Below, in pieces: positions 51,593-53,030 of a DNA stretch of 64,000 nucleotides (within the stretch, counting starts at the first letter, position 1; each line of letters begins with the position of its first letter). Source of the DNA: Candidatus Melainabacteria bacterium SSGW_16. GTDB taxonomy: Bacteria; Cyanobacteriota; Vampirovibrionia; 2-02-FULL-35-15. Under the pieces are notes generated by a model. The model did no database searches. It was not told where the DNA came from and saw only the letters and a program-made list of their open reading frames with translations. The position numbers were made by a program, and so were the translations under genes. The DNA is taken from positions 62,001 through 126,000 of the forward strand of contig DUDS01000021.1 in the NCBI GenBank assembly GCA_004769085.1. Reading direction: 5' to 3'.

Positions 51593-51961
51593 CTAAGTCC
51601 CTGGCGCAGTATTGCTCTGCTTAACTCGATTTTGATTATTTGCCTTTTCTTGTCCTTCCTGAGTACTAGCCTGACCCCTCATGTCGCTTATTTCACCTTC
51701 AAGCTGTGCAACAAGTGCATTTTGTTCATCTATACGACCCTGACCAACTGTAGGTCCTGAGGATCTTGGAGCACTTACTTCTGTTGACTGATTCCCACCA
51801 GTAACAGTTTGAGAAGAACCTGAGTTGCTTTTATCATCTGCTTTTTGTGATTCAAGATTATCTCGCCTCGATCTTGCACTCTCTAATTCGATTTGCTTTG
51901 CTTGCATACTATTTCCTGTTCCAAGCGATGCAAATATAGCCCCATCATTTAATATGAACAT
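51593..51961 (-). CDS. Small hydrophilic protein of unknown function behind structured leader 1
   Basis: The 122-residue product has no signal peptide or membrane segment. It is rich in Ser, Gln, Asn and Gly, with two predicted helical parts (MQAKQIELESARSRRDNLE and DEQNALVAQLEGEISDM) separated by a low-complexity linker. I recognise no family. A strong ribosome binding site AAGGAG sits seven bases before the ATG; CTCC just upstream could pair with it and hide it. It lies about 70 bp past terminator 1, and its expression probably depends on read-through. Confidence 0.65.
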   Translation of the reverse strand: MFILNDGAIFASLGTGNSMQAKQIELESARSRRDNLESQKADDKSNSGSSQTVTGGNQSTEVSAPRSSGPTVGQGRIDEQNALVAQLEGEISDMRGQASTQEGQEKANNQNRVKQSNTAPGT

Positions 51962-52030: not shown

Positions 52031-52069
52031 GTAAAAAACCCCGTAGGAGCTCTCATACAGGGTTTTTAC
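52031..52069 (-). terminator. Rho-independent terminator 1, between leader 1 and its small gene
   Basis: On the minus strand an AAAACCCTGTA arm pairs with TACGGGGTTTT, the loop contains AGAGCTC, and the stem is followed by a T-run (GGGGTTTTTTAC). It lies downstream of the structured leader and upstream of the start codon at 51961, the layout of an attenuator. The loop word AGAGCTC recurs in terminator 2. Confidence 0.8.
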
Positions 52070-52082
52070 TTCCTTAAGTTCT

Positions 52083-52200
52083 CTAAAATGAATCCTAAGA
52101 TTCGACCTTTAGATTAATCAACAATATGCATGGCAGCTGGACCTAGATTTATTTTAATATACTGGACTTTTTGTCCACTCTTTAGGTGCTAATCATGCAT
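52083..52200 (-). promoter_or_regulatory. Structured RNA leader 1 (unassigned class)
   Basis: Read 5'-3' on the minus strand: a helix ATGCATG/CATGCAT (52194-52200 with 52126-52132) encloses the motif TTAGCACCTAAA (52181-52192) and a TGGAC-A5-GTCCA hairpin. Then comes a second element, CTAAA, unpaired GGTC, hairpin GAATC-TTAG-GATTC, and a pairing TTTAG (52083-52112). The 9-mer AGGTCGAAT and the TTAGCRCCT word are shared with leader 2. Their ACCT and AGGT parts could pair as a pseudoknot. It matches no riboswitch class I recognise. Confidence 0.6.
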
Positions 52201-52281
52201 AATTCCAGTAAACCATATTTGAATTAAATGGTGGTTAAAAAATTCTTTTGTAAAAAATTTTTTATTAAAATAAAAAATCTA

Positions 52282-52611
52282 TCAAACTAATGGGGGGGTT
52301 CCCTTTGTATTATTAAAATCGCCTCCAAGTAGATTTTTTAAATTATCAATTTTAAGTTCAAGAAATTCCTTTAATATTTTTTTGTCTTCAGTGTTGAATT
52401 CATTTGAAGCCCTAGTTACAGTTTCACCTTCGGACTGATTTACTTCTCCAGCAGCATTTCCCTGTCTCATAGAACTAAGCTGAAGCTCATATTCAGCAAG
52501 TTTATCCCCGATCAGTTTTTTAACATAGTCATTGTTAGAAAACTGGCCGGAATTAGTTTTGAGACCTGCAAAAGGCAAATCTCCACCAGAATTTACTCGC
52601 TGGCCGTCCAT
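52282..52611 (-). CDS. Small hydrophilic protein of unknown function behind structured leader 2
   Basis: The 109-residue product is soluble, without signal peptide. It is polar at the N-terminus (MDGQRVNSGGDLPFAG), with helical stretches VKKLIGDKLAEYELQLSSM and EDKKILKEFLELKIDNLKN, and a Pro-rich end coded partly by a run of seven C. I recognise no family and see no clear homology to the 122-residue neighbour beyond composition. The ribosome binding site GAAAGG is moderate. It starts about 90 bp past terminator 2. An AT-only hairpin at 52258-52277 just past the stop could end transcription. Confidence 0.62.
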   Translation of the reverse strand: MDGQRVNSGGDLPFAGLKTNSGQFSNNDYVKKLIGDKLAEYELQLSSMRQGNAAGEVNQSEGETVTRASNEFNTEDKKILKEFLELKIDNLKNLLGGDFNNTKGTPPLV

Positions 52612-52703
52612 TAGAGCCTTTCTTAACCCCTGGGATGTAGTTAACCCTAGAAAAATTAAAACTGGTTTAAACCCGTGTAATCTATCACATATATAGTGTA
52701 AAA

Positions 52704-52739
52704 AAATAACCCCCTGCGAGCTCTTGCAGGGGGTTATTT
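52704..52739 (-). terminator. Rho-independent terminator 2, between leader 2 and its small gene
   Basis: A perfect 14-bp stem (AAATAACCCCCTGC with GCAGGGGGTTATTT) has an eight-base loop containing GAGCTC. On the minus strand it runs into TTATTTTTTTAC, a good U-tract; on the plus strand the T-run is interrupted. It lies between leader 2 and the start codon at 52611, as terminator 1 does for its gene. Confidence 0.85.
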
Positions 52740-52755
52740 CCCTTTTAACTTTTAC

Positions 52756-52881
52756 CTAAATCCCCGAGAACCGGGAATTCGACCTAGTTTACCGCACCGA
52801 CTCTGTTAGTTGAACCACGCGGTTAATTTTTCCGCTCTTTTTGGGTCAAACCTGTTGCCCACATTTTGAGGCGCTAACAGA
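52756..52881 (-). promoter_or_regulatory. Structured RNA leader 2 (unassigned class)
   Basis: On the minus strand a helix TCTGTTAG/CTAACAGA (52874-52881 with 52802-52809) encloses CGCCTCAAA, a TGGG/CCCA hairpin and a GCGG/CCGC hairpin. Downstream is CTA, unpaired GGTC(G), hairpin AATTCCCG-GTTCT-CGGGGATT, and TAG (52756-52787). This has the same plan as the second element of leader 1, with a completely different inner stem, so pairing rather than sequence is kept. TTAGCGCCT (52869-52877) and AGGTCGAAT (52777-52785) are the shared words. Confidence 0.6.
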
Positions 52882-53030
52882 TCAGCTACTAATAGATTAC
52901 TCATATTTGAAGAAAATTTCAAGAACCTCAATCCCCCATATAAAAGGAATTATTTTTAATAATTGAAAGTGTGAGTCTTTGTATGGTTAAAACTAAATTA
53001 AAAAAAAGTTACACTTCTTGTTACTTCTTC

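Follow-up and report, generated by a model that had tools for sequence, protein, structure and literature searches.

A probable structured small RNA gene of a new family, lying between a pilin-like gene and purD in an order of uncultured cyanobacterial relatives

The window analysed here, a stretch of 64,000 nucleotides from Candidatus Melainabacteria bacterium SSGW_16, contains on its minus strand, within 52033-52889, two units of a new RNA family that is absent from Rfam and confined, in the genomes searched, to one order. These units are probably independent structured small RNA genes, and not riboswitches of the genes that follow them; structured small RNA genes as a kind are already known. 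The features assigned in and around the two units are as follows.

52894-52922, minus strand: conserved promoter predicted for RNA unit 2 (-35 TTGAAA 52922-52917, 17-nt spacer, -10 TAATCT 52899-52894)
52700-52889, minus strand: RNA unit 2, probable intact small-RNA gene, ~190 nt from predicted start to terminator end, with a counterpart in each of the order's 11 genomes
52796-52886, minus strand: P1, the helix that closes the three-way junction, pairing 52886-52874 with 52809-52796 and, in its inner part, 52872-52870 with 52816-52814
52819-52868, minus strand: conserved core, with P2 (52861-52855 / 52849-52842), J2/3, P3 (52835-52832 / 52822-52819) and loop AAAAAUUAA
52758-52785, minus strand: word AGGTCGAAT (52785-52777) and hairpin H2 (52780-52758); GGUCG kept in 13/15 units, hairpin stem changing
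52700-52743, minus strand: intrinsic terminator of unit 2, 18-bp stem, octaloop AAGAGCUC (52725-52718)
52282-52611, minus strand: small gene a, the neighbour after unit 2, encoding a putative protein of 109 aa without a family, low-complexity or coiled-coil-like
52033-52206, minus strand: RNA unit 1, a decayed paralogue recognised by its fold and without a covariance-model match
Parts of unit 1, minus strand: P1 (52200-52194 / 52132-52126), P2-like hairpin (52177-52163), AGGTCGAAT (52108-52100), terminator GAGCTC (52052-52047)
51593-51961, minus strand: small gene b, 122 aa, the neighbour after unit 1

The initial annotation had described two paralogous structured leaders, each ending in a terminator ahead of a small gene. 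All of its named words were found on the minus strand (TTAGCACCT and TTAGCGCCT); the 9-mer AGGTCGAAT is present in both units, GAGCTC lies in both terminator loops (52052-52047 and 52723-52718), and the small ORFs start 69 and 88 bp downstream of the terminators. The window has three GAGCTC sites where 8.7 would be expected, and two of the three are these loops. Both regions folded better than their shuffles (z -2.9 and -3.3). When unit 2 was used as a DNA query, most of the 10 remaining family genomes yielded relatives (E down to 1e-17), and in one of them, G007, both units are present with the order and synteny of the window; the paralogy and the structure are therefore real, and two paralogous structured RNAs with terminators are supported.

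The same annotation had staked its reading on covarying homologues in relatives, and these were found by covariance-model search. A model of the P2/P3 core of unit 2 (R1), which matches the window core at 52818-52868 with 55.7 bits, gave a strong match in every one of the 11 available genomes of the window's order. Each genome has one RNA locus and no further copies elsewhere, and in 11/11 the locus lies between a pilin-like N_methyl gene (Pfam) and purD. There are 15 units in the 11 genomes, two each in the window's own genome (G000), G001, G005 and G007 and one in each of the others. Outside the order and within the class, R1 gave weak matches only, in coding-like sequence or ordinary terminators; inspected singly, these matches (L027-L043) were rejected as coding-like or plain terminators without promoter, P1 or octaloop. 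A phylum sample of 386 genomes yielded nothing further except one weak class match already discounted. Among GTDB genomes, an exact core 20-mer was limited to five groundwater MAGs of Candidatus Melainabacteria and six Verrucomicrobia, the latter set aside as coincidence (one common unrelated flank, without P2), and it had no match in viral contigs. The Rfam 15 covariance models gave no match at gathering score in the window or in seven homologous loci, and chance-level matches only in permissive mode, in keeping with the initial annotation, which had matched the leaders to no riboswitch class known to it. A literature search found no relevant description of such an RNA.

The homologues examined share a common fold, in RNAs of ~170-190 bases across the family. 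It runs from P1 through a junction of variable length to P2, J2/3, P3 and one further base, and back to P1. P2 is UGGGCAA / UUGaCCCA with a bulge, J2/3 is mostly AAAGGAGA, P3 is GCGG-AAAAAUUAA-CCGC, and the single base after P3 is A, or G in the window. The copies are almost invariant in the junction and in the P3 loop, and 97.9% of P2/P3 cells are paired, with three pairs changed on both sides (0/500 shuffles). P1 differs fully in sequence between genomes with its pairing kept: native arms averaged -15.5 kcal/mol versus -10.2 kcal/mol for cross-genome chimeras, and 0/20000 permutations were as good. The full-length minimum-free-energy fold of G008 deviates, the common fold appearing there only with P3 constrained, and the unconstrained fold of G010 has a different P2. 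A 41-aa open frame (52806-52931) overlaps unit 2 in the window, but it is extremely unlikely that we are looking at a translated short ORF or the remains of a repeat and not at an RNA feature, given the covariation in P1, P2 and P3, the changes in loop length and the single locus per genome without extra copies.

Some details of the proposed architecture were revised by this fold. A pseudoknot between RCCU and AGGU(CGAAU) had been suggested for both leaders; covariation of AGGTCG with the 5' word is absent (2707/10000 shuffles), and the RCCU:AGGUCGAAU pairing was rejected as having the wrong partner, since RCCU pairs with another AGGU beside P3. The 5' word is part of P1, and its covariation is with the word that immediately follows P3 (0/10000 shuffles), the pairs across genomes being ACCU/AGGU, AACUU/AAGUU, UCCC/GGGG and CACU/AGUG. 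An alternative pairing of GGUCGA with UUGACC of P2 is possible in conserved copies and was discarded because GGUCG is unchanged where P2 diverges (G008, G010 and the second copy of G005, by inspection). The GGTC described as unpaired is indeed free in a number of genomes; G002-G004, G009 and G010 have a second GGUC that can close the hairpin with it. In addition, what is conserved in unit 2 is the three-way junction that the two words enclose, and half of this junction (P3) is missing from unit 1.

The ends of the units are conserved as well. All 11 primary copies carry a promoter of the form TTG[A/T].. - exactly 17 nt - TA...T, with its predicted start at P1; a generic sigma-70 consensus scan scored it below threshold and left it unlisted, and it was recognised by conservation only. 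A terminator is present in 15/15 units, with stems that differ and an octaloop that is NAGAGCUC in 14 of them and UAGAAUUC in one, its six bases being palindromic in every unit. The conserved structure is thus bounded, as an RNA gene would be, by its own promoter at the 5' end (11/11 primary copies) and its own 3' terminator (15/15 units). From the loop sequences, the palindrome suggests a possible kissing-loop contact. As a general terminator loop TAGAGCTC was rejected, 30 sampled other genomic loci being without a stem.

Unit 1 is a duplicate whose P3 has disappeared from the copies of the window and G005, and whose G007 copy (L007) is intact. In the window both P3 and J2/3 are gone and P1 is kept; here (G000_1) and in the second copy of G005 (G005_1) the core has decayed and the terminator has been retained. 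The primary promoter is absent from all four second copies, and those of the window (52201-52230), G001 and G007 share another upstream pattern, TTTAATT..CAxATATG....ACT. With this pattern in place of the primary promoter, expression of these second copies may require different conditions or may be lacking altogether. In the second RNA of G001 (L044 4920-5090) the changes in P2 (GGGUAAG/CUUAUCCC) and in P3 (GCGA/UCGC) are compensatory, and the GGUCG word is gone.

As all copies are syntenic, position alone cannot separate a gene from a leader. The initial annotation had seen the arrangement of a riboswitch or attenuator, in which the terminator would control the small gene behind it. Such a cis-acting leader would fit the three-way-junction shape with its fixed core, and it would account for two observations that appear, from the gene layout, to count against an RNA gene: a small ORF comes next, 63-270 nt downstream of a terminator, in 10/11 genomes, and RNA and ORF were apparently duplicated jointly in G000, G005 and G007. 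We nevertheless consider a leader unlikely. In G004, whose contig is unbroken across the RNA site (genome 86% complete), the RNA is entire, no small gene comes after it, and its terminator directly adjoins the 3' end of the convergent purD; the two tandem RNAs of G001 have no gene between them. The gap from terminator to gene is variable, the second small ORFs of G002, G006 and G008 are not preceded by another RNA copy, and G000_1 and G005_1 lost the core and kept the terminator. Furthermore, a purely thermodynamic test gave the 5' arm of the terminator no pairing advantage with its own upstream region over the upstream regions of other genomes (7738/10000 shuffles as good), and there is therefore no sign of an antiterminator covarying with the terminator. 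Taken together, these results favour an RNA gene over a leader, and control of the downstream genes by the units, as first proposed, was not borne out.

The small proteins encoded downstream have diverged beyond BLAST recognition, whereas the RNA core has a mean column identity of 81%. BLAST of proteins a and b against the ten other family genomes found no relative; gene a had no Pfam match and a weak PHROG match only, and gene b had no Pfam family and only weak sub-cut-off matches. One or two such fast-evolving small genes are seen at the RNA site in 10/11 genomes. Several of the proteins share a weak pattern, YVKxLLxxKxxELxxxLxxMR, and are otherwise low-complexity, and the second small gene starts MFIL or MFLL in the window, G002 and G007. 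CRP/FNR-type palindromes (CTGTGATCTACATCACAG; TTGTGATGAGCTTCACTA; AGTGACTTAGTTCACT) lie between the RNA terminator and gene a at L051 5254-5271, in G009 (L052) and in G010 (L053), which suggests that gene a may have its own regulated promoter in these genomes.

For an RNA gene, we infer that transcription would start from the unit's own sigma-70-type promoter, with P1 first and the strong terminator last, and would yield a compact RNA in which a linker of GGUCG and a hairpin joins the three-way junction core to a terminator hairpin with a palindromic octaloop. Conservation is concentrated in the core junction and loop, in GGUCG and in the octaloop; P1 and the terminator stem vary. Such a distribution appears easier to reconcile with a folded core that binds a protein or a different RNA than with a single long antisense seed. 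The partner of the core would probably be a protein or a different RNA, which would make the molecule trans-acting, and the palindromic loop could allow two molecules to kiss. A CsrA/RsmA-titrating RNA was considered and rejected, the GGA of J2/3 being missing by inspection in G001, G002, G004 and unit 2 of the window. A more specific proposal, a trans-acting dimer in which the junction is a receptor for a ligand or protein and the terminator loop a conserved kissing-dimer site, is speculative and, in our estimate, improbable; we know of no such receptor-plus-kissing-terminator design among bacterial small RNAs.

These data place a structured RNA in every available genome of an order of uncultured, non-photosynthetic relatives of cyanobacteria. 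A core this constrained usually means binding to a protein, a ligand or the ribosome, which makes it a good target for probing. They also illustrate that, when a single genome is read, a free-standing RNA next to small genes that evolve fast can be mistaken for a riboswitch.

Among known systems, terminator-controlled riboswitches and attenuators likewise place a terminator between a junction with a conserved core and a gene, but here there is no conserved downstream gene, one genome has none, and no antiterminator covaries. 6S RNA (RF00013) has the same size and, like the present RNA, about one copy per genome, and with the RNA's own promoter these likenesses could point to a highly divergent member of a known family (6S, tmRNA or a known riboswitch) missed by the models. 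That this is so we regard as very unlikely: no gathering-score match was obtained in the window or seven homologous loci, the RF00013 model included, permissive matches were at chance level, ARAGORN found no tmRNA in the window, and the three-way junction is unlike the long bubbled hairpin of 6S. Moreover, 6S candidates lie at other loci. One likely 6S gene is at G000:C1:23644-23825 (L085; 45.5 bits against a cut-off of 46.4), and candidates of 43-46 bits, just under the Rfam cut-off, occur in 5/11 genomes (L085; L084, L086-L088). Retroviral dimerisation-initiation (kissing) loops consist of one or two leading bases and a six-base palindrome that can be swapped for another palindrome. The octaloop likewise has leading base(s) and a palindrome, here changed from GAGCUC to GAAUUC; it differs in being the loop of a bacterial terminator, and its predicted dimerisation rests on one double change, of a kind that preserves a palindrome in ~7% of random cases. 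Intergenic bacterial small RNAs typically offer a single-stranded seed, in place of which the RNA described here has a near-invariant three-way junction, and it belongs to no recognisable family; it shares with them its own promoter at the 5' end, a length of ~170-190 nt, a Rho-independent terminator, synteny and paralogous copies.
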